A program made the translations under genes and the position numbers. The notes beneath the pieces are model-generated. The model was not told the DNA's origin. It made no database searches and was given only the letters and a program-made list of their open reading frames with translations. From contig JBBPFI010000002.1 of NCBI GenBank assembly GCA_037974965.1, positions 1,116,001-1,180,000 of the forward strand: 64,000 nucleotides of DNA. The letters are read 5' to 3'. Below, piece after piece: positions 4,514 to 51,486 of this stretch (the stretch's first letter is position 1; every line of letters starts with the position of its first letter). The DNA comes from Dacryopinax spathularia (lineage: Eukaryota; Basidiomycota; Dacrymycetes; Dacrymycetales; Dacrymycetaceae).

Positions 4514-4515
4514 GA

Positions 4516-18954: not shown

Positions 18955-18963
18955 CAGTCAATG

Positions 18964-19405: not shown

Positions 19406-20350
19406 CTAGACGCCGGCCTCCGGCGCATCAGCCCACTCCGGTAGCCTTCCCATTCTCCATAGCATATTGACCGCCATGATGTTCTCTCGCTCCGTCTCGT
19501 AATCTTCAGGAATCGCAATGGCAAGCACCTTCTGTAGACTGCGAAAGGCAGGTATTCCCTCGTCCCACTTTCCGTTCACAGCGGCGAAATATTCCCAGTA
19601 GACAGGCATCCATCCGGCTGTTTCCCAGTCGATGATAGCCGACAGTTTGCCATTGTGCACCAATATATTGTGCGTGTTGATGTCTCCATGCGTGAAGACT
19701 GTTTTCGTATGTTCGTAGCGTTGGAACATTCGCTGGAGCCTTGACTCGATGCGCGGAAGGGTTGTCCCGCACACTTCGCGGAGGTGAGCGTGGAATGCGG
19801 CCATGTCCACGAAAGATGGCAGGCCGTAATCATCGTGCCAGTAAGGGCAATCCAAGTCTTCACCTGACGCTCCACAAAGAGCTTGGGGGTACGGATTGGG
19901 GATCTGGTGTAGGGCATTGATGTACCGCCCCAAATCAGTGCCGATCGTTTCGATCTGATCGTCCGATAGCTGATCGTGTACCTCCTGGAACATCTTCCCG
20001 GGAGCCTCCGTGGTAACCAAAAAGGCAAAGTCGCCATCAGATGTCTTTTGGATGATCCAATCCAGTAGCTTCGGAATCGGAATGTTCGTGTTCCGTTCGA
20101 CCAGGAGCAGGGCATGGGGCTCCGCGCTTCTTACGAACCGGCCGCTCTTGAGATATAGGCCGAAAGGCAGTTTTTGTACCCTTCCAGACATACGCGTTTC
20201 TGGGGCTACACGTTTCCTCAAGGGACCGACTAGCAAATTGTAGAGCGCGGCCCTAAGGGGCACTGGCACCAAAAGCCACGCTTTGGCGACAAGAGGCAAG
20301 CCCGACCTCCATAATGGGATGGGGTAGACGTACGGTCCATCCCGTCGCAT
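19406..20350 (-). CDS. APH-family kinase 2 (intact, module A)
   Basis: 314 residues in one exon, a paralog of the gene at 17800. The start MRRDGPYVYPIPLW aligns with the paralogs. It carries WLLVPVPLRAALY, KLPFGLYLKSG, IPNPYPQALCGASGEDLDCP, the catalytic loop HGDINTHN near residue 220, IDWETAGW and IPEDYETEREN. All expected catalytic residues of an APH phosphotransferase are present; the substrate is unknown. It is divergent to the small gene at 20688, with 337 bases between starts. That gap holds both conserved elements (20513-20530 and 20608-20619), so the two genes may be co-regulated. Confidence 0.87.
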   Translation of the reverse strand: MRRDGPYVYPIPLWRSGLPLVAKAWLLVPVPLRAALYNLLVGPLRKRVAPETRMSGRVQKLPFGLYLKSGRFVRSAEPHALLLVERNTNIPIPKLLDWIIQKTSDGDFAFLVTTEAPGKMFQEVHDQLSDDQIETIGTDLGRYINALHQIPNPYPQALCGASGEDLDCPYWHDDYGLPSFVDMAAFHAHLREVCGTTLPRIESRLQRMFQRYEHTKTVFTHGDINTHNILVHNGKLSAIIDWETAGWMPVYWEYFAAVNGKWDEGIPAFRSLQKVLAIAIPEDYETERENIMAVNMLWRMGRLPEWADAPEAGV

Positions 20351-20512
20351 GGCGTGAGCTGGGATATAAGGTGCTGTAGGCGGTTATGGTAAGAAAGAGA
20401 AATAAGTGCTACGGTCCAATTACTCACGTTCAGGTTTCGCCCCTTGCGCTAACTTATGAGGAGAGCGGAGCAGTGTGACTGGAACCCGATCCGGTGAGAG
20501 TCTCTGGTGGAG

Positions 20513-20530
20513 GGTCTCGGAGCGGAGGCA
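20513..20530 (+). promoter_or_regulatory. Conserved APH-upstream element, module A
   Basis: GGTCTCGGAGCGGAGGCA, 163 bases upstream of the APH start at 20350. It differs at two positions from the 17-base core at 18936 and lies in the shared intergenic region of module A. Confidence 0.55.
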
Positions 20531-20607
20531 ATTCGGACTCCAAGCTCATGGGTGAATCCCAGAGCATGGGTTAATGTGGGCTCCTTATCCCCGCAAATCG
20601 CAGCGTT

Positions 20608-20640
20608 GCCAGCATGGCAGTCTCGTTCCTTATAAACCAC
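20608..20640 (+). promoter_or_regulatory. GCCAGCATGGCA element and TATA box before small gene A
   Basis: GCCAGCATGGCA at 20608-20619 is followed by TTATAAAC near 20630, about 55 bases before the ATG at 20688. The same 12-mer lies upstream of small gene B (25370-25381), and a close version precedes small gene C (50281-50292, other strand). GCCA..TGGC is a short inverted repeat. Confidence 0.5.
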
Positions 20641-20687
20641 CACCAACCGTACACCTCGTTTGACAACCACGCATTCCAACTCCAACT

Positions 20688-21140
20688 ATGTCTGACGGAG
20701 AGGAATATACCGACCATACCCTATACCTCCGGTACCATAACTACGGTAGCTTCGACCTTGTCCTCACTCAGACGGGGCTCGACAGCCTTCGAGGATGTTT
20801 CGACCCCGGCGACAAGGATCCCAAGTTTAAGTGGCGAGTCCGCACCGCTAAACGAGACCGGACGACTGGAACGGTTACGGTCTTTATAAAGCTTGCTGTG
20901 CTGGACAGCACGAAGCAAGCCAAATTTCTCGAGATCAACAACCTCAACAAGGATACACTCGAGGCTCCTGCCGATAGGACTAAAGGCAAGGATATCATCC
21001 TCATCCTCGATCAGCTGTATGCGAACGGTATTGTGGGGGCAAACGGCGCCACGCTTGTTGAAGAAGGCCTGACGGAAGGGGAGAAGAGGGTCGGGAAGAT
21101 TAAGCACGGAGACATTGTCAGGTCGAAGTACTACATCTAA
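20688..21140 (+). CDS. Small protein of unrecognised family, copy A
   Basis: 150 residues in a single exon; I do not recognise the family. It has an acidic start (MSDGEEYTD), HTLYLR near residue 10, a basic centre, VFIKLAVLD, ILDQLYANGIVGA near 105-117, an acidic stretch and the end HGDIVRSKYYI. Copies B (25461) and C (49719) share LYLR/LHLRV, the hydrophobic IKLA-type strand, the LL..GLV segment and the [DE][IV]V[RQ]S ending. Each lies head to head with an APH kinase. There is no signal peptide or membrane segment, so it is probably cytosolic or nuclear. This is the only copy of the three with an intact frame. Confidence 0.6.
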   Translation: MSDGEEYTDHTLYLRYHNYGSFDLVLTQTGLDSLRGCFDPGDKDPKFKWRVRTAKRDRTTGTVTVFIKLAVLDSTKQAKFLEINNLNKDTLEAPADRTKGKDIILILDQLYANGIVGANGATLVEEGLTEGEKRVGKIKHGDIVRSKYYI

Positions 21141-21782
21141 GTGAGCAGGCTCTCAGTAGCTCGGACATCATACCATTGTCTCACATGTTGGTCCTTGTAG
21201 GGTTTGTTGCCGATTCGAACATGAGCGATGGAGGGCGGAATGATCGAGCTTCCGATGGTTCCTGGGGCGGAATGAGTTGTAGGCTTGGACCGTGTAAGAA
21301 TAGGGTTTTGATCGCCGAGCGAATCCTGGAGGAGAATGTGAAGCTTAACTGAACTGAAAGAATGTTACCGAATTCAATTGGGACTGAGGGAATGGTGCTA
21401 TTGCTTGCCAAGTTACGCACGGGATGTTCAACTCTTTGGCTATCGAGCTTACTAGCAGGGGCCACTGTGCCATTGCTTGACTAGGTATGTGCTGACATGC
21501 ACCGAACAAATATATCTCAGCGAATCAAGTAAGACTCTAACCCTCCCGGCCTCCCACCAGAGAACTCTTCCTGGCTCTTTCTCTATTCTGGATACCGCTT
21601 TCTCCATTCGCTCTCGCCGTTGATCCCTTGTTCCGCTGCGTGAGCCAGAGGTGCCTCCGCTTTCCGGCAGTTACACCGAGGAACGTTCTCTTGATGCCTG
21701 ATGAAAGGCCCTGAATGGATCGGCAGGCGGTTGATTGTACGAAAATGCTTCCAAGCATGACCGAAGTCATGTCCACCTACGG
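21141..21782. other. Intergenic, no gene seen
   Basis: About 640 bases between small gene A and APH kinase 3. It holds only short open frames without recognisable features. Confidence 0.45.
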
Positions 21783-22747
21783 CTACGTTGACGCGGATTG
21801 GAGCTCATTCGGCGTCGAGCCGCACGCAACCTGTGACGCCAGGAGTAGCGTCTTCCTTTCGTCCTCGTAATCCTCCGGGATTGCAGTTTCCATGAGTCGA
21901 TTGAATGCAAGTATATCGGGACGCTTGCTCTCTTTCCAAATTAGAGCGGCGAAGTATTCCCAATAGAGGGGCATCCAATCTCGCGGTCTCCCAATCGATA
22001 AGGCCAGATAGCCGGCCATGGTCAACCAGTATGTTGTGAACATTGAGATCGCCGTGAGTGAATACCGGTTTGGAGCTGTCAAACCGATCGAAAATGGGTT
22101 CTAGTCTGTCTTGCATGCGCAGCCAGAAACAACGGAATATCATCCCATCGCGTATCCATCGGCGGAAGTCGACCATGTCGTCCTGCTCGGGCAGATCATA
22201 TTGGTTGGACCAGTGGGGCGCGTCAATCCTCCCTCCCGCGGCACCACAGATAGACTTAGGATACGGGTTTGGAATATGCTGCAGTTTTTTGATGTAGTTG
22301 CCCAACTGCAACCCCATCGTGTCGAGTTGTTCGGGTCCTAATTGATCGTATACGTCCTGAAAAGAGTTTCCCGGGGATTTCGGTCATGAGAAGATAGATG
22401 TATGGCATGTCTGGTCCTCTTTGGACGATGTAGTCAAGTAGAAAGGGTGCCGGAACCGTGGTGTGTCGTCGGACGAGATATAGTGCGTGTGCCTCATCTG
22501 GCCGTATGAACCAGCCGATCTTGAGGTATAGCCCGAAAGGGAGCTTGAACACCCTTGACGACAACCGATCCGAGACTCCCATCTTCACGGATTTTGCGAG
22601 CCATGCATGAGCAAATCTATAGACCGCCGCACGTAGTCGGAGGGGCAGCAGAAGCCATATTTTGTCCCACAGAGGAACGTGGCCCCCTATGGGAAGGGGG
22701 AAGATGAGTGGACCGATTCGTCTTGGCCCGCAGTGCTTGCGCCGCAT
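21783..22747 (-). pseudogene. APH-family kinase 3, two frameshifts
   Basis: Similarity to APH kinase 4 spans the full length but in three frames. The first segment (22747 to about 22360) carries LPFGLYLKIGWF and TEIPGKLF. A one-base gain in a T run near 22365 breaks the frame. The middle segment carries IPNPYPKSICGAAG and the intact loop HGDLNVHN. A second shift near 21990, just after DWETA, separates the last segment (WMPLYWEYFA to the stop at 21783). Neither break looks like an intron. The gene is therefore a recent pseudogene, or the frameshifts are assembly errors. It has no divergent small partner, but the APH-upstream element remains at 22919. Confidence 0.75.
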
Positions 22748-22918
22748 CTATCAGTACTTCGTGAATGAAGAGGCACCTGAAGACGGGCATCTCGCACGAC
22801 TCACTTCTTAGAGATGGCTATTGCCAGATTGGGGGTGGATGTGAACCTAAAAACGGAGTGTGGTGGCTCAGAGTGCCTAAAGGAGCCAAGGGACTACAGT
22901 ATGATCGGTCGAGCACAA

Positions 22919-22936
22919 GGTCTCGGTGCGGATGCA
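22919..22936 (+). promoter_or_regulatory. Degenerate APH-upstream element, APH 3
   Basis: GGTCTCGGTGCGGATGCA, 172 bases upstream of 22747. It differs from the core at few positions. The surrounding gap 22748-23349 has no recognisable gene. Confidence 0.45.
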
Positions 22937-23349
22937 AACATGTGGAGGGGCCCCAGAAAAGGCAACCTGTCGATTGTGCACACTTACAAGGGTTAGAGGC
23001 GTGCTTCGGAGCCAGACTCGGCGGGGATCGTCCGGTCCAAGCATTCATAACCATGGACACAGCGTAGGAAGTCGAACGAGGTGAGCTGTCCTGCTCTCCC
23101 CCTCTCCTCCGGACATGCTTATCACCAAGCTGACTCAGATCATGCCGACAGTTCCCCAATCATCTGAAGTTTCGTACGCCTTCAAGGCCCAGAGCGATAA
23201 CGGGGAGAGACCAGAGGGAGACGCAGAAGGAATTTCCTAGAATCATGCGGCCAGGAACAGAAATGTGAAGAATGTACAGGTAGGTTCGCGATCCTCGACA
23301 GATGGAATAACCAGTGTTTTGTTTTCATACATCAGTATGAGCTGAACAA

Positions 23350-23645
23350 AAGTATAGTGCCCAGCTGACGGCTGTCGTCCAAGCCGGATCCGTGTCACCC
23401 AGTCAGGCGAACTCGTTATGGAATACGGTCGCGAATGCCCTGGGTTGTGGCACATGTCCGTTCGATTCCCTTGTCGAATAGCCGAATACCTGCTGAACCC
23501 CGTCCAGCCAGGGACGCTGTTCACCGCGCTTGTATGCAAGCTGTCCCGTGGGAGACGTTGTTGAAGGGGGTAGTCTCGAGTGGAGAGAGCTTCACCGCCT
23601 ACTCTGACGGTTTGCTTCACCATCCACATTTCCTCATTCTTCAGA
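23350..23645 (+). pseudogene. Carboxylesterase fragment
   Basis: Nearly 300 bases strongly resemble 13653-13950 of carboxylesterase 1: the intron end before exon 5, exon 5 (CAGCTGACGGCTGTC onwards), the following intron, and exon 6 to the next donor. Nothing of the rest of the gene is present, including the GESAG exon. Because introns are retained, the copy arose by DNA duplication and not through mRNA. Confidence 0.85.
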
Positions 23646-23679
23646 TTCGACCATCGGAAGAATAACAGCATACTGTCAT

Positions 23680-24110
23680 GTCATCCACTCGCCGACCGAA
23701 CACCCCCGAATCCTCCCCATCCTAGCACCCATATCCTCTCCGCGCTCCTAACTTGCTCATCCCTCGCCCTCCTCCGCTCCAAGGCCTCAACGTGCCTCTT
23801 GTGAATAAGAGCGGGGGCGCGGGCGGCGCCCGTGAGTGGCTGAGCCTGTCGGTGTTAGGATTGGGGGCCCGTGTCTTCTGGGGTGGCAGAGCGGCCGGAA
23901 GGGGAGGGGGAGGGTTGATGTGTGCGAAGAGCGGAGTGACGAGAGGCTCAGGATGGAGCAGAGGCTGGGGACGGGGCCGGGAATAGGTCGGAGTTGTGTT
24001 GTGATGATAGGTGGAGGGTGGATTCCCTTCTCAGCTCGGGAAGGTGAGCCTCCTCCCCGTATGGCGATAACTGCATTTGCGGCCGCTCTGGAACCTCGTC
24101 TCTCCGTCCT
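23680..24110 (-). pseudogene. Fragment copied from the RRG9-like gene 3' end
   Basis: This stretch matches about 26430-26870, the 3' part of the RRG9-like gene, at the level of many runs of 10-25 identical bases. The GGGGGA-rich segments are shorter here than in the intact gene. The reading frame is not kept. It directly follows the esterase fragment, so two unrelated gene pieces were joined between APH kinases 3 and 4. Confidence 0.75.
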
Positions 24111-24159
24111 TCTTTCATATGCATCTCGCAACCACGCGCATCGAATGGAGGGTTTACAA

Positions 24160-25116
24160 CTACCTCGACTTGGCTGTTCGGAACTCCTTGGGTATCGAAC
24201 CGCAGGCAATGCGTCGACTAAGCAAAACCGACTCTCTCTCGTTCTCGTAATCTTCCGGAATTGCGATTTGCATCAGCCGTTGGAAGGCCAAAATTTCGGG
24301 ACGCTTGCTGTCCTTCCAGTTGATGGCGGCAAAGTACTCCCAATACAAGGGCAGCCATCCCGCCGTTTCCCAATCGATCAAGCCTGAAAGTCGCCCGTTG
24401 TGGATGAGAATGTTGTGCACGTTGAGATCCCCATGGGTGAAGACAGGTTTCGTATGATCGAATCTGATGAAGACGCGTTCTAACCTATCTTGAATTTTTG
24501 GCCAGTAACCGCGGCACATCTTGCGGATCCATGCATGAAAGGCGACCATGTCATCCATCGCGGGTAGATCAAATTTGTCGGTCCAGTGAGGAGCATCGAT
24601 ACCCGCTCCCGCCGCGCCACATATGGCCTTGGGGTATGGATTTGGAATGGTTTGAAGCTCTTTGATATGCTCGCGCAGTTCCAGACCAATTGCATCGAGC
24701 TGCTCGGTCGACAGCTGATCGTATGCCTCGTGAAAGAGCTTTCCGGGAACTTCCGTCATAAGAAGGTAGGTATACGTCATCTCCGGTCCTTTCTGGACAA
24801 TGTAGTCGAGTAGAGCAGGAGAGGGAACGTTTGTATGTTCCCGAACGAAGTGAAGTGCGTATGCCTCGTCGGGCCGGACGAACCAGCCAAGTTTGATGTA
24901 CAGCCCGAAAGGGAGCTTGAAGACTCTTTGCGAGCGGCGGCCCGTTATGCCCATCACCACGTATTTGGCCAGCCATCTTTGAGCGATGCGATAAACTGCC
25001 GCCCGAATTGATACTGGAACCAAGAGCCAGACTTTGGCCCATGTCGGCACCTTGCTCCAAAGAGGGATAGGGCAGACCAACGGGCCGACCTGTCTAGGAG
25101 GAGGAGGAAGGTTCAT
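24160..25116 (-). CDS. APH-family kinase 4 (intact, module B)
   Basis: One exon, 318 residues from ATG 25116 (MNLPPPPRQVGPLVCPIPLW). An in-frame ATG at 25176 would add 20 residues that are not shared by the paralogs. It carries VWLLVPVSIRAAVY, KLPFGLYIKLGWF, LMTEVPGKLF, IPNPYPKAICGAAGAGIDAP, the catalytic loop HGDLNVHN near residue 225, IDWETAGW and IPEDYENERES. All core APH phosphotransferase residues are present; the substrate is unknown. It is divergent to the small gene at 25461 with 344 bases between starts, containing both conserved elements. It is the closest intact relative of pseudogene APH 3. Confidence 0.87.
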   Translation of the reverse strand: MNLPPPPRQVGPLVCPIPLWSKVPTWAKVWLLVPVSIRAAVYRIAQRWLAKYVVMGITGRRSQRVFKLPFGLYIKLGWFVRPDEAYALHFVREHTNVPSPALLDYIVQKGPEMTYTYLLMTEVPGKLFHEAYDQLSTEQLDAIGLELREHIKELQTIPNPYPKAICGAAGAGIDAPHWTDKFDLPAMDDMVAFHAWIRKMCRGYWPKIQDRLERVFIRFDHTKPVFTHGDLNVHNILIHNGRLSGLIDWETAGWLPLYWEYFAAINWKDSKRPEILAFQRLMQIAIPEDYENERESVLLSRRIACGSIPKEFRTAKSR

Positions 25117-25280
25117 CTGCGATTGTTTGGCGAGTAAGCGGTGTGCGAGTGTGACCTGCTGCATCCTCACCGTCATGTAGACTAGTTTCGGGCTAGCAGT
25201 GACTGTTGTGGCTTAGACCAAGAACGCGCAGCACGATGACACACAGTGCCAAGTCTTGAACCTATCTAGCTCCATCGATT

Positions 25281-25299
25281 GAGTCTCGGGACGGAAGCA
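25281..25299 (+). promoter_or_regulatory. Conserved APH-upstream element, module B
   Basis: GAGTCTCGGGACGGAAGCA, 165 bases upstream of the APH start at 25116. A GGGGTTAATG sequence follows at 25311-25320, and a similar GGGTTAATG lies at the equivalent place in module A. Confidence 0.55.
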
Positions 25300-25369
25300 A
25301 AATGGGTGGAGGGGTTAATGCCCATTGTCAGTAACTTAGCGGAGCTTGCTGATTTTTCTTATAATCGGT

Positions 25370-25381
25370 GCCAGCATGGCA
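25370..25381 (+). promoter_or_regulatory. GCCAGCATGGCA element before small gene B
   Basis: Exact 12-base match to the element at 20608-20619, 80 bases upstream of the ATG at 25461. TTATAATC lies just before it at about 25359. Confidence 0.5.
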
Positions 25382-25460
25382 ATCACCCTTGCAGCTCCTG
25401 TTCCCAGCCGACAACCCGCCCTCGCAGCCATATCAGACTCGTCTACTGAACTCGCTAAGC

Positions 25461-25942
25461 ATGTCGCAGTCCGACGACGATGACTGGGCGGCAATACCCT
25501 GTACCTCCGTGTCAATAAGGCGGATGAGTGGGAGCTCGTATTGCCTGAGCCTGGAAACTTGACCTACAACTACCGCACCGGGCTTTCTCTCTTCTCGGAC
25601 GGCAGTAGTGCATGGGAACACAACTTTTGCTTCATGGACCGTACGACGCTCAGCATCCTCATCTTCCTCAAGGTCGCAACGTTACAGGGGCAAGCCCTTA
25701 CTGAGTATCACCAAGCCGCAACACAGTTCGGACAATATGTGGAGCAGATGGGATTTGAAGAACCACTGGATGCGATCATCGCGTTCCTCGATCTCCTCCA
25801 CTCGAAAGGCCTTGTCCCCGCATCCGGCAAGACGTTGACGGATGAAGCGACGACCGAAGCCAGTAGGAGGCGGGAGGAAGAGCCCTATCCGGGCGAGGTT
25901 GTCCAGTCCGAGCACTTTGCGATTATAGGCACGGATCAGTAG
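25461..25942 (+). pseudogene. Small protein of unrecognised family, copy B, frame broken near start
   Basis: The start MSQSDDDDW aligns with MSDGEEYTD of copy A. The conserved part that follows (NTLYLRVNKADEWELVL and on to the stop at 25942) is in another frame, closed upstream by TGA at 25481. The shift falls between about 25482 and 25490, and no intron of normal size explains it. The long second frame (LFSDGSSAWEHNF, ILIFLKVATL, FLDLLHSKGLVPASG, GEVVQSEHF) is otherwise undamaged. It may be a young pseudogene, may use an unseen start, or may contain a sequencing error. It lies head to head with intact APH kinase 4. Confidence 0.55.
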
Positions 25943-26426: not shown

Positions 26427-28064
26427 TCATCCACTCGCCGACAAACTCCCCCGAATCCTCCCCATCCTAGCACCTAAGATCCGCTCCGCACTCCTAACCT
26501 GCTCATCCCTCGCCTTCCTCCGCTCAAGAGCCTCAACCTGCCTCTGCTGAATAAGAGCGCGTGCGCGAGCAGCTCCGGTGAGTGGCTGGGATTGTGAGCC
26601 GGTTTCTTCTCGGGTGGAGGAGCGGCCGGAGATGGAGGGGGAGGGGGAGGGGGAGGGGGAGGGTTGATGTGTGCTGGGAGGGGAGTGACGAGGGGCTGGA
26701 GATGGAGCTGGGGAGGGGGATGGGGATGGGGATGGGTCGGACTTGGATTGTGGTGGTGATGATTCGGTGAGGGTGGAATCCGCTCGACGCTCCTCGGGGG
26801 GTTGTTCCTCCTCGACATAAGGCGACAGCCGCGCCGCCCGCCTCTCTCGAGCTTCCCGTCCTCTACCTTCCACACCTCCCTCGTCTCGTCTGCGACCTTG
26901 TCCCTCCCTCCCCCTCCCAGCAGCTCGCGACTCCCTTCGCTCAACCCATTCCTCCCAACTCATCCTCACTCGCCCTACCCCCAGCAAAGGAAACCGCTGG
27001 TCCATCCTCTTCTCGTATGCTTCCCTCAGCTCTCTCATGTTCTCATCTAGGGGTTCGACATCTTCTCCTTCTTCTTCACTGGTAGCAGAGCGGGTAGAGA
27101 GCAGCGTACGGAGGGGGGCGGAGAGGTCCGGTATGTGGGCGGAGACGGGCAGACGGCGTGTGCCGTACGTTTCTGGCCTGGGGGCGGCGGTGGAGGGCGT
27201 TGGGCTGCTCGTTGAAGAGGCCGAGGAGGCCGGACGAGTAGTTGTAGAGGAACCCATAATAGCGGATTGTTTTGCGCCCCTTTCTGGGCTGGGAGCGCTT
27301 GGCTGGACAGCCTTTTCCGCTTCTTCTAAAGCCTCTTGAGCTGCTCGGAGGCGTGCAGCACGCAAGCGATCCTCCAGCGTCACCTTCACCTTCCTCCTTC
27401 CTTTCCTCCCTTTCCTTTCCTCCTCCGTCACGACCTCCACATCCCCTTCCTCCTCTCCTCCCTGCTCAGCCTGCTCAGGCGCACGCACCACACTCCCGCC
27501 CAACGCCCTCACCGCCCTCCCAGCCGCTACAAGCGCCCTCCGCCTCTCCCTCTCCTCCCTCCACACCTCCCTCCTCTTCTCCCTCTCCTTCTCCTGCACC
27601 CTTTCGTCCTCCCACTCCCGTCTACGCATCCTCATCTCCCGCTCCGGACTCGGCTCCCAGCTGCTCCTCAATATCCGTCTCACCGCTTCCGGGGAAATCT
27701 TGAACTTCTCCGCTAACATAGGCACGCTGAACGTATCGGGATTCTCGGCGTTAAATAGTCTAAGGGCGGCCATAGCCTCCCTTGAGATCTTTTTGGGCGG
27801 GTTCCACCCCTCCGGAAACCGCTCGCGGAGAGCAGCGCGGTGAGCGGCCCATTCTGCCGGTGTGGCAGGGCGGGAAGGCGGACGGAGGGCTTGGTTCTCG
27901 AGTGTGCGGGGTTGGGTGTTGCGGGATGTTGATGTGGACGGGGAGGGAGAGGAGGTGGGAGGGGGAGAACGGGTTGGACGACGGTTGGCGGGTGAACGGA
28001 GGCGCGGGTGGAGGGTGAGGCCTGGCGGGGCGGGGGGGAGTCGGAGGGTCGTACGGCCGGGCAT
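26427..28064 (-). CDS. RRG9: RRG9/neugrin-like mitochondrial protein
   Basis: Resembles Required for Respiratory Growth 9, a fungal mitochondrial protein needed to maintain mitochondrial DNA. One exon, 545 residues. The N-terminus is rich in Arg, Ser and Thr with few acids (MPGRTTLRLPP...), as in mitochondrial presequences. The conserved segment lies near residues 85-135: WNPPKKISREAMAALR, then FNAENPDTFSVPMLAEKFKIS, then PEAVRRILRSSW. A long charged helical stretch and a Pro/Ser-rich low-complexity tail follow, making the protein much longer than the yeast one (roughly 200 residues). Part of its 3' end is duplicated at 23680-24110. Family assignment is good; the length of the tail is unusual. 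Confidence 0.75.
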   Translation of the reverse strand: MPGRTTLRLPPAPPGLTLHPRLRSPANRRPTRSPPPTSSPSPSTSTSRNTQPRTLENQALRPPSRPATPAEWAAHRAALRERFPEGWNPPKKISREAMAALRLFNAENPDTFSVPMLAEKFKISPEAVRRILRSSWEPSPEREMRMRRREWEDERVQEKEREKRREVWREERERRRALVAAGRAVRALGGSVVRAPEQAEQGGEEEGDVEVVTEEERKGRKGRRKVKVTLEDRLRAARLRAAQEALEEAEKAVQPSAPSPERGAKQSAIMGSSTTTRPASSASSTSSPTPSTAAPRPETYGTRRLPVSAHIPDLSAPLRTLLSTRSATSEEEGEDVEPLDENMRELREAYEKRMDQRFPLLGVGRVRMSWEEWVERRESRAAGRGREGQGRRRDEGGVEGRGREARERRAARLSPYVEEEQPPEERRADSTLTESSPPQSKSDPSPSPSPSPAPSPAPRHSPPSTHQPSPSPSPSPSISGRSSTREETGSQSQPLTGAARARALIQQRQVEALERRKARDEQVRSAERILGARMGRIRGSLSASG

Positions 28065-28437
28065 TAGGTTGATCTACTTGCTTGAAGGATTATAGCCCGT
28101 ATTCCGTATTGAATTCCGTTGTTTTGATGGTATAAAAAAGGTTGCGATATGGCAGAGATGAAGAGTGCGGCAAAAGAGCAAAGCAGACAAGCGCCCAAAA
28201 AAGTCGACGTCGGTCCCTTACGATCACCGATCGCCGATCACTGATTTCGTGGCTGTGCCCTGGAACTCCGCAACTCCGAGCCCGTACCAACGACGCCAAA
28301 CGCGTTGCTGTCCCCCAAACCCCGCATACATCTCCCTTCCTGCTTTAGAAGCTCTTGTAGCTCGGCTCGGTTCTTCTTCGCTTTACTTTCTTTGTCTTGT
28401 TCTTGTCTTGTCTTGTCTATATTGAGGTTGAGGTGAG
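28065..28437. promoter_or_regulatory. Shared upstream region of RRG9-like and coactosin-like genes
   Basis: 373 bases between divergent starts. It includes a TATAAAAAAG sequence near 28131 on the plus strand and TTTGTCTTGT/TCTTGTCTTG pyrimidine-rich repeats at about 28390-28418, shortly before the coactosin start. No gene was seen. Confidence 0.5.
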
Positions 28438-31992: not shown

Positions 31993-33525
31993 TCAGAAGG
32001 TAAAGAGCTCGCAGCCCACAGGTTCGTAAGCTGGGTTTGCCTTGTCGATTATGAACTGGAGCATCGCGTAAGGTTGAGGTCCGGTTTCTGCGCGACAAAA
32101 GTTAGAGCTCGAAAACTATGATCTCGCAGAACCATCACCCACGGGCGGTTTCGATAAGCGTCTGGTAAGAGCCACACAACACACCGGTAGGATCGTTCGG
32201 GTTGGTCTGCCGTTTGCGGGTCACGGTGGAATTCGTTCCAGTCGAATTACCTATCGGGAACCAGGTGCCATTGACGTTCGTGCCGAACTCCTTGGGATAG
32301 GCATTGTACAACGAAAAGATACCCTGACTGATCTCGATATCGGTGAGGGATGTCAGCCGATTGTGCCAGTTCGGAGGCGGACGTTCGCCAATATGAGCCC
32401 ATGATCCGTCGGACGCCGGAACCGCACCGAAGAACGAAGCAATCGTCTCAAGGTCGGGAGTATTGTTCTTGGCGGAGGAGGGAAATGCAGTGAAGAGGAA
32501 CGTAGCTGCGCCGTAATTGTGCAGCTGACTTGGGTGAGAATATGTCCTTATGCGAGTTGCCAAGACATACCCCGAGCTGTGGGAAATAGAGCCAGGGGTT
32601 CTCCACCCTGAGAGTGTCGTAACGCTGCGCGCGATATAACGCCAAGGCGTTGAAGTCAAAGAGACTGTTCCTCTATCAGCACAGCGAGAAATCACGGCAG
32701 ACCACCGTGACTCACGGGTTCTCGGCAGAGGAAGTCGACTTGGCCGTTTCAAGCATCATTCCGAACAAGGTTCCGTTGAAGCTGTGAGAGTCGCCAGTAA
32801 GATAATAATCATTTCGAGTGAGGGAAATATCTCTGGAACACCGGTCAGACCCCAGGGCAACCCTTCATGGAGAGGTCGTACAGTTCGAAGGTTCCGTGAC
32901 GACTGATCCCACCATAATCGCCGGTGAACTCGCCGTACTTGCCGGTCTGGAGAGGGACCGAATCTCCGATGGAAAGGAGCTCCGAGACAGGATCACCGTC
33001 GAGAACGAACCCGAGCATGGCAAGACCGACCGCCGCCCGAAAATCGATCTGCAGACGTATGAGGATCATTTGCGTACGAGAGTAGGAAGACGGCTCACGT
33101 TGTAGACATTCTGTAAGGCGGCAACCAGTTCATTGTAGGACGTGATGCCACCCCGAGAGATAAAGCCAAGGTTGGCCAGCGTGTTCAACCCTGGACTGAT
33201 GCTCTTTCAGAATGTACGACGGGAGCGTCAGGAATGCGATGACGTACCACGGACCACGCTGAGCACCGAGAGGGGGATCTTGGTAGTAGTGGGCATAGTC
33301 TCCAGGCGCAGGCACTTGTACACCTCCCTTGCCTGTACCAGCTTTGCCATCCATAAGCGCGCCTGTATACGGGAACTCGGAGGAATAGGGCTCCGCTCCA
33401 CGGCGCAAGAGGGGACCGTTGGCAGAGTTCTCAGGTGCACCAGTGAGTCGAGCGCCGTAGCCTGGGAAGGCACCCACGAGTACTGGAGCAGCAGCAAGAA
33501 GAATCGTGGCAGCGGAGGAGAACAT
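31993..33525 (-). CDS. Heme-thiolate peroxidase 1 (Peroxidase_2 family)
   Basis: A secreted member of the chloroperoxidase/unspecific peroxygenase family, in which a Cys thiolate binds heme and H2O2 drives oxidation or halogenation. Seven exons: 33525-33248, 33195-33099, 33048-32882, 32832-32716, 32664-32571, 32524-32143, 32087-31993. A signal peptide (MFSSAATILLAAAPVLVGA) precedes a short pro-region. The first intron splits the heme-ligand motif PCPGLNTLAN. The usual NHG or SHG after it is NLG here. Further landmarks are LGFVLDGDPVSE, FELDISLTRNDYY, GDSHSFNGTLFGMM and VENPWLYFP. The motif is ELD where short and long peroxygenases have EHD or EGD, and NYGAATF has Ala where the acid-base Glu is expected. 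Activity is therefore uncertain. Same exon plan as the copies at 35906 and 47945. Confidence 0.85.
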
Positions 33526-35905
33526 GACGAGCTGTATTCTGCTGGCTTGCTGAGATTTTGTTTGTTGAAATGGCGAGCCTTTATACGTGAAGGACGTGAC
33601 CTGGGGTCAGGCAGAGACCGACCCAGACGCCGGGCGTCCACGCACTCGGCATGGTGGATTACTGAGGCAGCATGGTCGCGCAGCGCGGCCAGCCATGGAA
33701 GATACGGGTGAGCGCTTGCCTCTTGATCTTGCACGCTCAGATAGTGCCTCGAGTGGCCCGGTAGAAGCCTGTTCACTTACTCAGGCCAAGCTTCCCCTTG
33801 GAAAGTGCGCCTCCTCCGTCCGGAAATGGAGCAATCTCTCAGCAGTCAGGCCATAGGAAGGCAAGAGTACGTGATCAAAGCCGCAATAGAAGACCGTATT
33901 GTCCACGTCGTAAACCAGATGGGCCCTATGAAGGCAAGGCAAGGCGCGGCGAGTCAAGCTATTGGGTCCGAGCTCCAGGATAGAAAACAGATTGCCAAAG
34001 AACAGTACGCAGTGTTGACTTGGCGCTGGCAGAAGATTGAGGTTCTACACAGAAAAGAAGCCCAAACGTAGTCCCGGACAGTTGGATAGAGGCCTGGTCG
34101 ACACGGAGTTGGCGCGCATTTTTATCGAGTCCGCAGTTGGGGTTTCATTGACCATACATAGGTGCGAAAAGGTGTGCTCTGTACACTGTACCGTTCAAAT
34201 TGTGATTGCGTCCTTGTTTATAAATCAGAAGTGCTTGCTTCGAGACCAGCACAATCAATGAGACTTACCTAGCAAGTCACCATTGCAGGGGTTGCTAAGC
34301 ATTCCAACTCAATGCATGTCCGAAGGCTTGAAGCGAGTGCCAAAACAGAGCGCTGTTGGAATCTCCTTTCTCCATCAGTCCGCAACGGCAGCAAGATTGG
34401 ACCAGCGGCACGGTAGCGCGCTTCGGCACAACGAGAATGCCGACATAGTCTCGGCCGACATGAGCTGCGAGTCACAACGCGACGTGCCTTCCGCAGTGTC
34501 GCCGCCCGCTCCTGCCGGGGCGCCAGCAATACGGTAGTAGTGGGTGGCAAGTTGTGTCCAGCTATACCAATTAGGCGGCGAAATGGTGCATTGCAGATGG
34601 TGTGTTCCTGCACTTTCGACGATGAACACCGCCAAGGTGCGGCTTCGGCGCCGCCGCCTCAAAACGAAAATGTTGACCCTGACACTATCTGATCCCGATC
34701 AGTTCGGATCGGGATCCAATCTCTGCCGTCCGCTTCTCCTGGCGCCGACCAGCGTGGCCAGCGCTCGCCCTTCAACTAGGACACCATACACTATTCACCC
34801 CTTCAAGGCGCGCCCTGCAGGACGAAATGCGGGGTCAGTGCTCTAACCTGTATCCTTTGCGTATGTGCTGATCATGGGGTTGACCCCCGAAACATACAAT
34901 TTGAGCACGTATTCAAGTTCTAATTACGTTCTCCACTGCGCGGCTTCAATCTCATTGCTCAGGCGTGCGCCGCACGTATTCTAAAAGTACCGAATGCACA
35001 GGGCACTCGTACCTAAAGCCTCCGAATGAACCTGCGCGCCTACCTCTATATCATCCGAAATAAGAAGTGGCCGTTTCGTGTCAAAGGTCCGCGGCAGCAA
35101 GCTATCGGAGCCCCTTATATACCAATAGTATTGCACATGTTCTCCTAATACCAGGAACCACGGCATATGAGTCACACGGAAGCGGGCCACGCTGCCCGAA
35201 CCGGGAGGAGACGACCGTTGTTGTTGCTATTATATCCGCTGCAGAACAGCCTGTTGGTGAGCTCTCAATACTTACTCTGTCGAGGGGTGCGAACCTGTTT
35301 GGTTCTGTATACTCTCTATCCTGCAGTTGTCGACATACTTGCCGTAGCTGGCAAAGCAAAAGGGCACGGAGCAACAAGAAAGGGAAGAGCCGGGCGCAGC
35401 CCCATCTGAGCGCCTGCCTGCCGGGTCCACTCCAATCCTTCCGAAGTTCACAGTCGAGACATACGAGGCAATAGCGCGATACCGCAAGGCTGCAGAGTAT
35501 TTCGATCCCTTCAACGACATTAGCCCGAAAAGGACACGTAGGTACGTAGCGGGTAGCTAGGTGGACGAGCACTGGTTTGGAGGCGGGGCGCCCTCTTTGT
35601 GATCATTGTTTCTGCAAAAGCATGCGTCAGGTTTAGGCAGCATATGGTCTAGGCCTGCCCGAACCATCGCGAACAAGGCCTCAAAGAAGGCTAGACGGGG
35701 CCCGGTGAATGCGGAACCGATGTTCCTGAGTTTTCGGAGCCGACCGATAACCGAGATTGGGCATCGTGTGCCTGTCTTCTGAAAGGAGATAACGGCCCTA
35801 AAACCCCATGGTTTCTCCCTTCGTTCCCATGGTGCCAGCTGGTATCACACCATAATATATTATAAGGATGCAATGAATAATTAGATGCGCAAGGAGCAAA
35901 CGTCC
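33526..35905. other. Long intergenic region, no gene seen
   Basis: About 2.4 kb between two peroxidase genes. Short open frames on both strands lack recognisable features. One perfect hairpin, GATCCCGATC (34691-34700) with GATCGGGATC (34707-34716), was noted. Nothing else was seen. Confidence 0.45.
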
Positions 35906-37438
35906 TCAAAGCGTGAACAGTTGACACCCAACCTGCGCGAACACGGGATTGGCTTTCTCGATGACAAATTGGAGCATGGCATATGGTTGAGGAGCAGCCT
36001 CTGCCGGATAGTCAGTCTATGTCGGCGCATCTGCACGAGACGATGCTTACGAGCATGCTGAAGAATCTCATCATAAGCGCCGCAGAGAACGCCGTTCGGG
36101 TCCAGCGGGTTAGTCTGACGCTTCCGCTGGCTGATGCTGCTCGTGTTGCTCAGGGGGTACCAGACGCCATTGACATTTGCGCCGTATTCCTTTGGATAGG
36201 CGGCGTACATCTCGGTGATGCCGCTGCTCACGTCCGCGAGGCCGAGAGGCGTGACCCGGTTGAACCAGTTCGGCGGAGTACGCTCGCCGACGTGTGTCCA
36301 AGTACCATCAGGGAGCTGGACAGCACCAAAGAACGAAGAGATCGTCTCCAGGTCGGGCGTATAGTTCTTGGCGGAAGACGGGAAGGTGTTATAGAGGAAG
36401 GTCGCGGCGCCGTAGTTGTGGAGCTGTCGGATAATCAGCAGTGCTCTTCTAGCAGGAAGAATGAAAGACTCACAGCAAGCTGCGGGAAGTACAGCCACGG
36501 GTTTTCCACCCGAGCACGGTCGTACTGCTGCGACCGGTAGAGCGCCATAGCATTGAAGTCGAAGAGGCTAGAGTATGGTTGGCATGACCCTCACGGAAGG
36601 ACAGCGGGGCTCCACTTACGGGTTCTCGGCGGAAGACGTCGACTTGGCGGTTTCGACCATCATGCCGAAAAGGGTGCCATTGAAGCTGTGGGAATCGCCG
36701 TTGAGGAAGTAGTCGTTACGAGTCAAGGACACGTCCCTGGGTCGATGATTAGCGTGAAGTATACTTAATCCGCAAACAGGGACATACAGTTCGAAGGTAC
36801 CATGGTTGTCGACTCCCCCATATTCACCAGTGTACTCGCCTGGGTGTCCGGTCTGAAGTGGCACCGACGCGCCGATGGACATCATCTCCGAGACGGGATC
36901 ACCATCCAGCACAAAACCAAGCACGGTGAGAGCAACGGCGACCGAGAAGTCGACCTGCCAGGGCGATCAGTATGCAGACACGCATGAGCGGCTCGCAAGA
37001 GCGTACGTTATACGCGTTCTGCAATCCAGCGACCATCTCGGTGTACGTTGTGATACCGTCTCGGGAGAGGAAACCGTGGTTGGCAAGCGCATTCAGACCG
37101 GGGCTAATCGTAGGTTAGGACAGAGTTGTCTGCACATGACGAGAAGCGTCAACGTACCAAGGGCCCCGCTGAGCGCCGATGGGTGGATCCTCGTAGTAGT
37201 GGGCATAGTCGCCCGGCGCCGGTACCTGCACACCTCCCACTCCCGTACCGGCCTGCCCGTTGAGCGTGGCGCCGGTGTAGGGGAACTGAGGGGAATACGG
37301 TGCAGCAGCCCGTCTCAGGATGGGATATTTCCCCGTGTTATCGTTACGCGGACCAGCGAATCTCCTGGCATAGGCGGGAAAAGCCTCAACCGCGACAGGC
37401 GTGGACGCCAACAACAGGGAGATAGCCGAGAGCAACAT
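35906..37438 (-). CDS. Heme-thiolate peroxidase 2 (Peroxidase_2 family)
   Basis: Paralog of the gene at 31993 on the same strand. Seven exons: 37438-37158, 37103-37007, 36954-36788, 36736-36620, 36567-36474, 36423-36051, 36000-35906. Signal peptide MLLSAISLLLASTPVAVEA. The heme-ligand motif PCPGLNALANHG is complete and again split by the first intron after PC. GFVLDGDPVSEMMS, FELDVSLTRNDYF, GDSHSFNGTLFGMM, VENPWLYFP and NYGAATF follow. It shares the ELD and NYGA variants with the other two copies but keeps the NHG His that copy 1 lacks. Asn-X-Ser/Thr sites (NGT, NYT, NTS) suit a secreted glycoprotein. The substrate is unknown. Confidence 0.87.
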
Positions 37439-43267: not shown

Positions 43268-43487
43268 CGGAATAGGCGAAACGAAACACATGTCGGGTTG
43301 AAGGGATTTGGTCAAGTTTGTAATTGAATAATTTGCTCGAGGTGCAGTCGAGCGTATGCATAGTCTGACGAGCGTTCGCACACGGTATATGCCGATATTT
43401 CAACAACCCATTGAATAATGGAATACCCGAATGATGGTATAGACAATGTAGCATCTCCTCTCCTCTCCCGTCCCAACCCCATCACGC

Positions 43488-44349: not shown

Positions 44350-44536
44350 TCTTGTCGACAAGACCGTCTGAAGCAAGTCAGGTATGGGAGACAAGACGTG
44401 GATGTATGCGCTCAGAAATGGGAGCGCTATGCGGTGTCGCGCGCGCCTGAAGTTCGCCTTTGCTTCCGGCATATATTGGCCCAACTCAACCTCTGCTGGT
44501 CGTCTTCAACTCTGACGCTGCTTGTTGTTGGCCATC

Positions 44537-46143: not shown

Positions 46144-47944
46144 GCCCGCGGACAATGGCTAGGAGGTGTAGTTCTTACAAGGCTTCATTGCCATTCTGTC
46201 CTTGATTGTATGCCCTGTGCTCATGGAAATCCAGCTCTCGATGTTACAGCGAGTGGCCGGCTCGGACTCGGCTGTCCGAAACGATTCGCTTGTCTTTCAT
46301 TTCAGAGATCCTTGCTGCATAGCTGATGCCTTCTTGAAGGTCGGCGGGCGAACTATTACCCCCTCGGTCCGCTCAACAAGTTGCCGAACCGCATCTTAGC
46401 CCGCTCCGTAAGAAGTGTGTTCGGCATTGATTGCTATGCTCTGTTGTCCAGGTAAGCCCAATTGCGCAGCTTTCGGCGGAAGCTCCTGTCGGGGAAGCTC
46501 CTGTCGGCTTGTCGCACCGATACTAGCACGACAACATGAACTTGTCCGTATTCGCCCAAAAGGACTGAGTGGTGTGACCAGAATTTGCGCTACTCCTGGA
46601 CCTCGTACCGTATGCAGTTCGAGGAGGAAATAGGCTACTGCGAGCATGCTCAGGGCTGCCACGGACCTGAAGTGCCTAGGCTTTGGCCTGTCTAGTCAAT
46701 CAACAAATTCATTATGTTCTCATGCCCCCGCCGGAGTCTGCAGAAATCTGCCGATGTCCGTCCGGCGGACGCCGTGTGTCCGAGAAACCCCGAGCGGTAA
46801 GGTACTTGTTTATTGGTCACACCGAAATCTCCACGATGTTATAGAGTACCTGGTTAGGGGCCATTAGGCGCATGCATGTGTCGCTCCCGGGTCTGCTCAT
46901 GGATCGTAGACTGCGCACTTCAAGCAGGAAATGGCACTCAGGCTCCTGCTCAGAAGCATACAAGAGGAACCTTCGAAGTCCTATAGAAAAGGCGCATGAG
47001 CTTGCGCTACACACAGCAATTGGTCAATGGTTCACGTGCCCAAGACTGCTCCCGCGTAACGCGGATTCAGGGTCTCACCGTGGACACCGCCTTCTTGCCT
47101 TCCTTGGTCCGGATTCTCAACGTCACTCTGTCAACATCTGACTGCGCAGATGCCCAGACATCATCAGCGCTTCTTGCATACAGGGCCGTTCTGATTGGAT
47201 TACACAACGGCAACGAGCATCGCCTTCAATGACTCCGCATGTTGAGGAAAGCTTGCTATTCTGGTCATCAGCGGCAGGTACCGCCAAGCGCAGTTACCCT
47301 TCTGAGCAGCCTACTTCCTTACAATTCGCCAAGAAAGATCCATTCTGGCTCCAAGGTCCGGCCACCTTTCTACGGGCGGCAATCCAGGTCTTGATGATGC
47401 CATTCGGCAGCGGATGGGGGAATACAAGCCAACATATGCTGTGACCGGCCGGCCGGTCTGTTTGTGGCGCGACACCGACGAGAGACGCGTGTAGCTCTAC
47501 TCCAACAGAATCGGTGTATTGGACCATGCCATCTGTTGCATCGAATGGACATCCAGCCTCTCACGATGCTCGGTTGCTCCTTGAGAAGTTCTGTTCAATG
47601 CGCCAGGGCAATCAGATGCAGGACGATTGGATTTCATCCAATTAAGAAGCATCCCATTCCGCTGCCTGTTCGTGCGTCTATACGGCTGCGGGCATCGCCT
47701 GCCGCAGTTCGATCCATCACAGAGTCAACTCCCCTGCGTCAAAGCCGGCGATGGAGATCACACATGGTTGAAGTCCGCCGGGAGAGCGTCTACTAATGCA
47801 ATGCGGTGGTTTTGTTGTCACGCAGTACTATTGCACTTCCGGAAGATCGAGCACGGACCGTGCCTGGAGGTACTTAAGCCGTCAAAAGTAGCAACCTCTT
47901 CAGTCAACAGAGCTCACCAGCCAACAAACAACAAGTCTACCGCC
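46144..47944. other. Intergenic, no gene seen
   Basis: 1.8 kb between the PWI gene and peroxidase 3. Short open frames on both strands lack recognisable features. The part before 47945 presumably holds the peroxidase promoter. Confidence 0.45.
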
Positions 47945-49443
47945 ATGCGTTTCGCAGCTACCGCAATCGTCCTTGCGGGACTCACCTTGGTGGTCGACGC
48001 TTACCCTCAATACGCCAAGCGCTTTCAGGTCCCTCGCATGGAACGCCGTAGTACCGCTACCAAGCCAGTACTGCGTCGTGCAGCAGCCCCTTACTCCGAC
48101 CAGTTCCCCTACACTGGCGCCAAACTCGACGGCAAGGCCGGCACTGGCAAAGGCGGCGTCCAGGTGCCTGCTCCTGGTGACACCGACCACGAATACCAGG
48201 ATCCTCCGCCCGGTGCTTACCGTGGACCTTGGTGGGTGAGCCGAAATCATAGTCGCAATAACGCTCATGCCTTTGACTTAGCCCTGGTCTGAACACTCTG
48301 GCTAACCACGGTTTCCTCTCTCGCGATGGTATTACGACCTACACCGAGATGATTGCCGGTCTTCAGAACGTGTACAACCTCGACTTGGGTGCGGCTGTCA
48401 TCCTGACCACCCTCGGCTTCGTTTTCGACGGCGACCCCGTTTCTGAGATGATGTCCATTGGCGTGGAGGCCGTGCAGAAGACCGGTCAACCAGGCAACTT
48501 TACTGGAGAATACGGAGGAGTCGCCCAGCACGGGACCTTCGAGCTGTAAGGCCCCTCAACTCGTCCGAGTGTAATCCTGGCTCACATCCTCCAGTGACGT
48601 GTCTCTGACTCGCAATGACTTCTACCTGCGTGGTGACGCGTACAGCTTCAACGGCACCCTGTTCGGCATGATGGTTGAGACCGCCAAGAACACATCTTCG
48701 CCTGAGAACCCGTGAGTTGGCACGTGTCAGTTCAGAGTACCGTTTCTTATGCTTGTAAAGGCTCTTCGACCTCAAGGCCCTTTCCCTCTACCGCTCGCAG
48801 CAGTACGAGCGTGCCCGGGTGGAGAACCCCTGGCTGTACTTTCCCTCCCTGGTGGTAAGCGTCTTTCCCTGTAGGTAAGATTCAAGCGCTGACCCACCTG
48901 CAGCTCCACAACTACGGCGCGGCTACGTTCCTGTACGAAGCCTTCCCTTCATCCGCTAAGAATAACACGCCGGATCTGGAAACGATCTCCTCCTTCTTTG
49001 GTGCCGTCCAGCTGGAAGACGGGACCTGGGGCCACGTGCCCGAGCGCCCGCCGCCTAACTGGCACAACCGGGTCACACCTATGACTATCGCAGACGTAAC
49101 AAGCGGAATCGACGCCATGTACAGCGCGTACCCCAAGCCCTTCGGCGCGAACGTGAACGGGGTATGGATCCCCTCGAACGAGACGTACACTCCCAGCCCG
49201 AGCCCCGGCAGCCAAGCGGGTGACGACGCCCTCTTCTGCGGGGCGTACACCGAGGTTGTCCAGACTGCGAGTGAGCCCGTTCCTCCCCAAGACTTGAACT
49301 AGTATCTGACAGTTTTACCCGTCTCAGCGCTCGCTCCTCAGCCGTACGCCATGCTTAAATTTGTCATTGAGAAGGCTGGCCCGATCGCAGCGCCATACAA
49401 CTGCACGGGCGTGCCGACCAGCCTTGACGAACTGGGATTCTAA
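47945..49443 (+). CDS. Heme-thiolate peroxidase 3 (Peroxidase_2 family)
   Basis: Third paralog, on the opposite strand and separated from copies 1 and 2 by the housekeeping block. Six exons: 47945-48231, 48282-48545, 48595-48711, 48761-48854, 48904-49270, 49328-49443. The intron that splits exons 2 and 3 in the other copies is absent. Signal peptide MRFAATAIVLAGLTLVVDA. PCPGLNTLANHGF (Cys near residue 96) is split by intron 1. FELDVSLTR lies 87 residues later, close to the Cys-to-EGD spacing in Agrocybe peroxygenase. GDAYSFNGTLFGMM, VENPWLYFP and NYGAATF follow. It lacks the Arg/Lys-rich insertion before the C-terminal domain (TVTRKRQTN, SQRKRQTN) seen in copies 1 and 2. Secreted; substrate unknown. 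Confidence 0.88.
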
Positions 49444-49718
49444 CCGGTAAGCGAGGCGAACCCATTTTAGGCCCAGTCAAAGACTCCCTTGCTTACTCCG
49501 AAACCGTCACATGAATTGATATATTCTTCACAAGTTTGAGTCCCCAGCTTGAATGCGTGCTTGCCATCTTTCATATCTTTCAGCCACTCCGAAATCCACC
49601 GTCTCCGACCATCACTCGGGAACTCCCTGCAAGAAGGTTCGGAACACGGATGCTGGACGTTTGCTCACTTTCGAATACCTCTAGAAACTAAGGTGTGTTA
49701 CTCACTCGTATGCCCAGC

Positions 49719-50167
49719 CTACATTTCGAGGAAATATTTGGACTGGACGATGTCGGCAGGAAAGTTGGGATCGGCCCGTTTGGCGGCCTCATCCGAAGCT
49801 TCCTTGACAAGCTCCTCTGCCGACGCCCCGACAAGACCGTGTGAATAGAGCAGAGCCAAGAGGCCGCGGATAGCCTTCTCAGCAGTACTATAGACATCTT
49901 GATGCTCTGCGACAGTCGTCTTGAAGGCCTCGCTGATAGTGCAATAGGACGCAGTGCCAGATTGGCCGAGAGCCGCTAATTTGATCGTCACCGTGATGCT
50001 CAACGTTAGGACGGGGTCCACACCATCTTCGACTTGTCCGGCAATGACAGCTGCAACTGCTCACGGTCGGCGTAGGCATTCTCCAGCGTCATGACAAGTG
50101 ACCACACTTCTTCGGCTGTGTGCACTCGGAGATGCAGCATGTTTTCCTCGAGATTTTCTTCTGCCAT
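49719..50167 (-). pseudogene. Small protein of unrecognised family, copy C, one frameshift
   Basis: It begins MAEENLEENMLHLRVHTAEE, which parallels the acidic start and LYLR of copies A and B, and runs to LSLPDK. A one-base loss near 50035 then moves the conserved remainder to another frame: LTLSITVTIKLAALG, LLALLYSHGLVGASAEELV and the end ADIVQSKYFLEM at 49719. Without the shift the frame stops within a few codons. Length if undamaged would be about 150 residues, as in copy A. It lies head to head with damaged APH kinase 5, 376 bases between starts. The conservation of both segments suggests recent loss, or a sequence error. Confidence 0.55.
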
Positions 50168-50280
50168 GGCAGTCTGGAGTAGTTGGAGGGGCCGGAGCGG
50201 TAGCTGGCTCAGACTCCAGAGTACGAGTTCAAAGGGTGGTCGTCGCTGAGCAAAGGGAGGCGGTGCGGTGAGTCCAAGTC

Positions 50281-50292
50281 TGCCATGCTGTC
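50281..50292 (-). promoter_or_regulatory. GCCAGCATGGCA-like element before small gene C
   Basis: On the minus strand this reads GACAGCATGGCA, one base different from the elements of modules A and B. It lies 114 bases upstream of the ATG of copy C at 50167. Confidence 0.45.
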
Positions 50293-50385
50293 ATAGATAG
50301 ATATAGTAGTCCACGAGGCCACGAAATACGAACAATGACATTGGCCGCTCCGACTCGACCTTCTGATCCGAGTCTTGATGCGCGT

Positions 50386-50404
50386 TGCTTCCGTTCCGAG
50401 ACCC
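50386..50404 (-). promoter_or_regulatory. Conserved APH-upstream element, module C
   Basis: On the minus strand GGGTCTCGGAACGGAAGCA, identical over 17 bases to the element at 18936. It is 139 bases upstream of the APH start at 50544. The whole module is inverted relative to A and B, and the element is inverted with it. Confidence 0.6.
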
Positions 50405-50543
50405 GCATAAGGGCTTTGTGATTGAACATTGATGCCCGTCACGCGCACTACCCTCGCGCAGCTCACTTTTCTATCATAAAATCGGGGGTATGAATAACAT
50501 ATTACTGTCTTCACTCGGGATGAGCTGCTGAGCCACTCATAGG

Positions 50544-51486
50544 ATGTCCTGGAGACCTACCCTCATCGGCGGACCCTATGCTCCTCTCCAGCTCAGGCTG
50601 GGTTGGAGTCACGGCGCAGCCTTCGGCTTCTTCTGGCGTTTGGTACCCGTACGATGGCGTGTTGCCTTTTACGAGCTCATGACCGGGCGCGGACGACTGG
50701 CCAAATACGTGGCGAAGAGAACGCGAATGTCGTCTATAGTGTACAAGCTGCCCTTCGGCCTCTACCTCAAGCACGGTCCGGACGTCCGAAGTGCCGAGCC
50801 GTATGCGCTATGGCGTATCCAGCAACATACCAGTCTGAGTCTACCTGCTCCGCGTTTGCTGGACTACATCGTGCAAAAAAACGAATATGGGCGACCACAG
50901 CTATGTCCTCATGACGGAGGTTCCGGGAAGAATGTTCTTCGAAGTGCGCGATACCCTTTCGACAACGCAGCTAGACACCATCGGCTCGGAGCTTCGAGAT
51001 TATCTCCAAATGCTGTCGACGATCCCGAACCCATACCCGACGGCGGTCTGCAGCGCTTCTGGGGAGAATTTGGATGCGCCGCTGTACAGCGAGAACCATG
51101 GGTTTCCGACGTTCCCGGATGTGGCCGCGTACCATGCGTACCTACGAGAGGATGCCCATTGACTCTCAGTTCCGCCTGACGTGTGGGACAAGCTCGAGCG
51201 CACGTTCGCTCGCTTCGACCATGCACCAACGGTGTTTATCCATGGAGATCTCTCCGTGGGAAACATCCTAATACAGGACGGACGGTTCTCGGGCCTGGTC
51301 GATTGGGAGACGGCCGGGTGGATGCCTGCCTATTGGGATTACGTTGCGGCGGTGAGAGGGAAATGGGCTAACGACCCGGCTTTCTATCGAGTGATTGCAG
51401 CTGCCATTCCAGAGGACTATGAGAACGAGCGGTGGGGGATCATGTCGATTCGGCTTGCGCAGACTGGCGGGAAGATGGGTGGTTGA
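50544..51486 (+). pseudogene. APH-family kinase 5, frameshift and nonsense (module C)
   Basis: The first frame (MSWRPTLIGGPYAPLQL to LLDYIVQK) carries VYKLPFGLYLKHG. It breaks at a run of seven A near 50875-50881, where the sister copy at 59190-60149 has six. The next frame carries NPYPTAVCSASGENLDAP but has an in-frame TGA at 51160-51162. After it the frame continues with the catalytic loop HGDLSVGN, VDWETAGW and IPEDYENERWG to the stop at 51484-51486. Active-site residues remain, so loss seems recent. An A-run length error could explain the first break but not the stop. Confidence 0.75.

Follow-up and report, generated by a model that had tools for sequence, protein, structure and literature searches.

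An APH-family kinase gene divergently arranged with a small gene from an apparently undescribed family: a pair repeatedly duplicated and probably co-regulated within a local kinase expansion of Dacryopinax spathularia

Enzymes of the APH family act on small molecules or, in some relatives, on proteins, and to our knowledge those of fungi are widespread and mostly uncharacterised. HipBA, a kinase-type toxin-antitoxin pair, resembles the locus described here in that a kinase-fold gene adjoins a small gene; in the present case, however, the genes are divergent, they belong to a fungus, the kinase is of another family and the small gene has been lost at places where the kinase remains open. The kinase half itself has its closest known counterparts in the PF01636 kinase-like proteins of the fungi Calocera and Dacryopinax, which share the Pfam match and 36-45% identity. 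As for the arrangement, divergent gene pairs with a bidirectional promoter are reported from fungi, for example from Fusarium (PMC7012866). Our pairs have the head-to-head order in common with them, the spacer being about 250-380 bases here, whereas in our case the pair itself has been multiplied in one cluster and one partner comes from a family that seems undescribed. In the open-licence literature, judged by titles and abstract openings, no match to such a pair was found. A gene that co-duplicates with APH kinases from a shared spacer would provide a concrete handle on the regulation or the substrates of these kinases.

The DNA stretch analysed here, referred to as the window, comprises 64,000 nucleotides (contig C2, positions 1116001-1180000) of a genome of 29.2 Mb in 24 contigs. 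It carries three modules, A, B and C, whose coordinates, head-to-head orientation and start-to-start distances (337, 344 and 376 bases, respectively) were given in the original prediction and proved exact on recheck (Table 1). Three additional pairs, D, E and F, are located on the same contig just right of the window, with spacers of 276 bases in D and 251 bases in E, the start of F being unsettled. All six pairs are arranged head to head with a spacer shorter than 1 kb, and these spacers may contain a bidirectional promoter.

Table 1. Features of the kinase cluster in and next to the window (window positions unless prefixed by C2)
Feature	Position	Strand	Remarks
Kinase p18	17803..18777	-	open, without small gene
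E1 before p18	18939-18955		one mismatch
Kinase A, APH family	19406..20350	-	open; ORF to 20383, first ATG 20350; PF01636 78.3 bits
E1 of pair A	20515..20531	+	exact; 164 bases from kinase ATG
E2 of pair A	20607..20622	+	exact
Small gene A	20688..21140	+	150 aa, open
Kinase p22	21786..22747	-	broken, no small gene detected
E1 before p22	22921-22937		exact
3'-end duplicate of Neugrin-domain gene	23681..24067		73.5% identity to 26427-26825
Kinase B, APH family	24160..25116	-	open; other in-frame ATGs 25164, 25176; PF01636 64.3 bits
E1 of pair B	25284..25300	+	exact; 167 bases from kinase ATG
E2 of pair B	25369..25384	+	exact
Small gene B	25461..25942	+	ATG 25461, frame break by 25483, family frame 25484-25942
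Neugrin-domain gene (Pfam)	26430-28073	-	
Small gene C	49719..50167	-	broken; start frame from 50167, family frame 49722-50060
E2 of pair C	50278..50293	-	exact
E1 of pair C	50385..50401	-	exact; 142 bases from kinase ATG
Kinase C, APH family	50544..51486	+	broken over three frames; PF01636 57.6 bits (last fragment)
Kinase p53	52750..53670	-	open, unpaired; faces remnant p54
Kinase remnant p54	about 54575-54889	+	broken
Kinase p59	59308..60120	-	broken; inverted duplicate of kinase C (59212-60188, 72%)
Kinase D	63623..64000, continues beyond window to 64531 (C2:1180531)	-	open
Small gene D	C2:1180808-1181305	+	

The kinase genes of the three modules belong, as predicted, to the APH family: A, B and the last fragment of C exceed the PF01636 cut-off of 23.2 bits, as do D, E, F, p18, p53, p66 and p104, and the first fragment of kinase C matches no Pfam family. 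The HGD...N motif and the DW aspartate, which we take to be the catalytic Asp and Asn and the metal-binding Asp of these kinases, are present in the aligned open kinases A, B, D, E, F, p18, p53 and p104; in the aligned rows, p66 has HAD in place of HGD and retains the Asp. Among 5.8 billion proteins, the best relatives of kinase A are a metagenome protein (45% identity) and the above Calocera/Dacryopinax proteins, those of mushrooms being lower (28-33%); from this one gene, the organism would probably belong to Dacrymycetes. The genome gives 31 APH matches, counted by open frame and not by gene, and 13 APH genes or remnants are gathered within C2:1133803-1221163, namely p18, A, p22, B, C, p53, p54, p59, D, p66, E, F and p104. 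In nine of these (p18, A, B, p53, D, p66, E, F and p104) a single long frame is open, which is what we mean by "open", a working gene not being implied, and four are broken (p22, C, p54 and p59). For each unpaired kinase compared, the nearest relative is a paired one: p104/E 75%, p18/A 68%, p22/B 55%, p53/C 52% and p66/F 46%, with p54 and p59 outside the comparison. The partnered and unpartnered sisters A/p18 and E/p104 offer a natural comparison within one genome.

The small genes A, B and C are homologous above chance, in keeping with the original prediction. Indeed, when small protein A was searched against the whole genome, B (E 6.5e-8), C (E 6.5e-7) and a fourth copy, D (E 0.029), were recovered. 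A profile of A, B and C, applied to the 144 kb that surround the window and to nine further stretches at other APH genes, detected D (1e-13), E (3.3e-9) and F (0.0049), all on the same contig, and no further match better than E 1.3 in that sequence. In the genome, small protein D matched E (2.5e-11), B (2.3e-9), C (5.4e-4) and A (0.010), small protein E matched D (5.5e-11) and B (0.0076), and F matched only itself; F is provisionally accepted as a member from a weak profile score together with its head-to-head place beside a kinase. Besides the self-match of F, searching the genome pairwise with the small proteins A, D, E and F recovered five of the six members and no small gene away from a kinase; a member elsewhere that has diverged as far as F would be missed in this way. 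Each of the six small genes detected here is oriented divergently to an APH gene, a proportion that holds for the copies found, since F was detected because its stretch was scanned. On both counts, alignment of the small genes and their APH neighbours, the original prediction withstood its own refutation test in this genome.

Beyond this genome, the protein collection contained no relative at E 10 or below, neither among the 30 candidates for small protein A alone nor among the 3733 for the six-member alignment; relatives at about 25-30% identity may escape this search, since it requires shared exact five-residue words. An annotated small partner of the Calocera/Dacryopinax kinase-like proteins was likewise not found in the collection. 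Sequence searches of Pfam and PDB with the small family gave chance-level matches only, including HTH_12 (0.057) and HTH_20 (0.061), each with one of the six members, for a winged-helix reading, and an ArsR chain (0.11) for an ArsR-type one. As judged from these searches, the small proteins appear to form an undescribed family, with no recognised relative in Pfam, PDB or the protein collection.

In every one of the six small genes, codon usage ranks the assigned frame above the other five; for D, E and F, the initial 35 codons were omitted. Furthermore, over 1965 codon comparisons position 2 is conserved most (47.7%), then position 1 (39.6%) and position 3 (30.7%), a pattern expected of a constrained protein. 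Seven columns of the small-protein alignment are invariant, five of them being G, A, L or T, and the alignment lacks a block of invariant residues of the kind seen at active sites. A model based on four window-derived rows (pLDDT 68, pTM 0.70) has a pair of strands plus a third one, four helices and a final strand, and a compact alpha/beta protein is predicted. No convincing fold match to this moderate model was found, which does not establish a new fold.

Kinase and small gene have been duplicated together, as was originally proposed for a pair spreading as a unit. The small-protein and kinase distances of the six pairs are correlated (r=0.75 for the columns after the C break, 0.78 when all columns are used), and in either calculation 10 of 720 permutations did equally well; the test comprises only six pairs and partly mirrors shared duplication, which passive copying would yield too. 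In the trees of both the kinases and the small proteins, A/B/C are separate from D/E and F, several nodes being weak (D/E with F has a support of 0.22 in both). Flanking sequence was copied along with the pair: the two Neugrin flank pieces are spaced by about 2.75 kb, and the kinases p22 and B by about 2.38 kb. The simplest reading would be a tandem duplication of kinase, small gene and flank, followed by loss of the small gene at p22. Such a loss is suggested by the distance from the promoter element E1, described below, to the flank, which is about 760 bases at p22 versus about 1140 at B. A 49-bp piece beside p18 (18964-19012), starting eight bases beyond E1, is 90% identical to the end region of kinase B and looks like a rearrangement scar. 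We infer that p18 and p22 formerly had small genes; in the seven stretches upstream of unpaired kinases, no convincing small-gene remnant was found.

Two more repeats were noted in this part of the cluster. The start region of p53 (53418-53788) recurs inverted next to p59 (60246-60569) with 70% identity, a further cluster rearrangement, and a proline- and serine-coding simple repeat beside kinase C (51766-52285) has an inverted relative beside p59 (58504-58874). These simple repeats may have helped the inverted duplication.

The damage to the modules is as first described, A being open in both genes, B having a damaged small gene and C being broken in both. Small gene B is out of frame near its start; its family frame follows directly after a TGA (25481-25483) and has no ATG before 25634. 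For small gene C, an intron, considered by eye, may be present, but a frame break in which about 16 bases were lost is the better fit, since this part of C can be aligned to coding portions of A and B. An assembly error may lie behind the breaks in B or C. Pairs D and E are, like A, open in both genes, and in F the small gene has an open family region. Loss is one-sided: the kinases B, p18, p53, p66 and p104, five in all, are open without a working small partner, and all four open small genes (A, D, E and F) face an open kinase, none having been found beside a broken one. The small gene thus looks dispensable to the kinase and not the reverse, a tendency that so few copies do not prove.

The spacers contain two elements that are conserved in sequence and position. 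E1, TCTCGGNRCGGANGCAA, has four exact genome matches in its full 17-base form, which precede kinases A, p22, B and C; allowing one mismatch adds p18 and six places elsewhere, and a reversed control pattern gave two matches. A scoring matrix made from these five sites, which match it by construction, gives them 28-31 bits, and the next best place in 144 kb has at most 13.8. At A, B, C, D, E, p18 and p22, the core GTCTCGG is located, in one orientation, at a distance of 142-173 bases from the start codon of the kinase, with D and E carrying the core only. In that orientation it is missing at F, p53, p59, p66, p104 and six unlinked kinases, and it is reversed at p53, p104 and one unlinked kinase. 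The core is therefore present at 5/6 paired kinases, 2/6 unpaired cluster kinases (p54 left out) and 0/6 unlinked ones, the last being a rough control since the first ATG in each open frame was used as the start, introns disregarded. As GTCTCGG occurs 29 times on both strands of the 144 kb, E1 sites included, the chance of a match is about 3% per spacer. Since E1 is present before the unpaired p18 and p22 and missing at the paired F, its role may be confined to the kinase.

E2, TGMCAGCATGGCARWC, matches the genome exactly at three places, all before the small genes A, B and C; with one mismatch there are eight matches elsewhere (reversed control, five), and D, E and F show no match. Since E2 includes an ATG, it could double as an upstream start. 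In pair B this ATG is in frame with the family frame of the small gene, the stretch running over 25376-25483 (+) up to the TGA, which is possibly an upstream frame or due to chance; the corresponding ATGs of A and C lie in a different frame from their small genes. The original interpretation is supported in part: the pair multiplies as a unit and has conserved promoter elements, and the small protein may regulate or bind the kinase or be modified by it.

Collectively, these data point to a real, repeatedly duplicated and probably co-regulated pair, with a small family that seems undescribed, in a local kinase expansion. We tentatively favour, at somewhat less than even chances, a divergent pair that was multiplied and is co-regulated from its shared spacer, with the small protein as a dispensable accessory of the kinase. 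An ancestral pair of APH kinase gene and small gene with a shared spacer would have been duplicated locally, in tandem and inverted, in one lineage. The spacer would serve as a bidirectional promoter controlled through E1 and E2, so that both genes would be made together, and the small protein would be an accessory of its own kinase, most likely a regulator that binds it and tunes its activity or substrate choice. That the small proteins form a new family of dedicated APH-kinase partners, each tuned to its own kinase, with parallel pairs arising by duplication and regulator loss, seems rather doubtful to us. On the other hand, passive co-duplication is a serious rival, and it is quite possible that neighbours with unrelated jobs were copied together by duplications covering both, the elements serving the genes separately. 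Such hitchhiking agrees with the local position of every copy found, with the loss or breakage of the small gene next to five open kinases and with the retention of E1 before p18 and p22, where no small gene was detected; but the head-to-head order is kept in 6/6 pairs despite protein identity down to about 20-35%, and the pairwise searches of the genome (A, D, E and F as queries) yielded no small gene away from a kinase.

The pairing and promoter evidence would apply equally if the small protein, instead of regulating the kinase, were its substrate or worked as an enzyme or carrier in a small-molecule pathway common to both, and the range of targets of APH-family enzymes would suit either role. 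We consider this unlikely, since the small protein is without a recognised catalytic family or fold and its few invariant columns, mostly G, A, L or T, form no active-site-like run. A poison-antidote system, in which the small protein would neutralise a harmful kinase or the kinase a harmful small protein, is in our view very improbable. The two-gene unit, its many copies, several of them damaged, and its fast divergence would all be in line with it. However, the five open kinases without a working partner make the small protein unlike a required antidote, no open small gene was found beside a broken kinase, and the copies found are confined to one stretch of about 90 kb; the conflict-type selection raised originally is thus not supported, although cross-protection between copies may occur. 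Loss of this kind would fit the accessory role that we favour.

A biosynthetic cluster is not favoured: in a neighbour scan of 20 long frames, nine are without a family and the Pfam-named ones are mostly housekeeping (ribosomal S6e and S5, mL59, Sec23, Neugrin and PWI). Several other features were observed nearby. A Ty3-type retrotransposon identified with Pfam (4488-9587, +) has separate gag and pol frames, both open, and a DDE_1 transposase-like frame lies next to small gene F (C2:1216669-1218021; 21.5 bits vs a cut-off of 22). Another gene is present in three related copies, one of them inverted (32256-33407, 36154-37318 and 48071-49173; 64-68% DNA identity). A Peroxidase_2 match at 35884-36567 is weak and below the cut-off, and the stretch 48277-48549 presumably carries a chloroperoxidase-like motif, as judged by eye.
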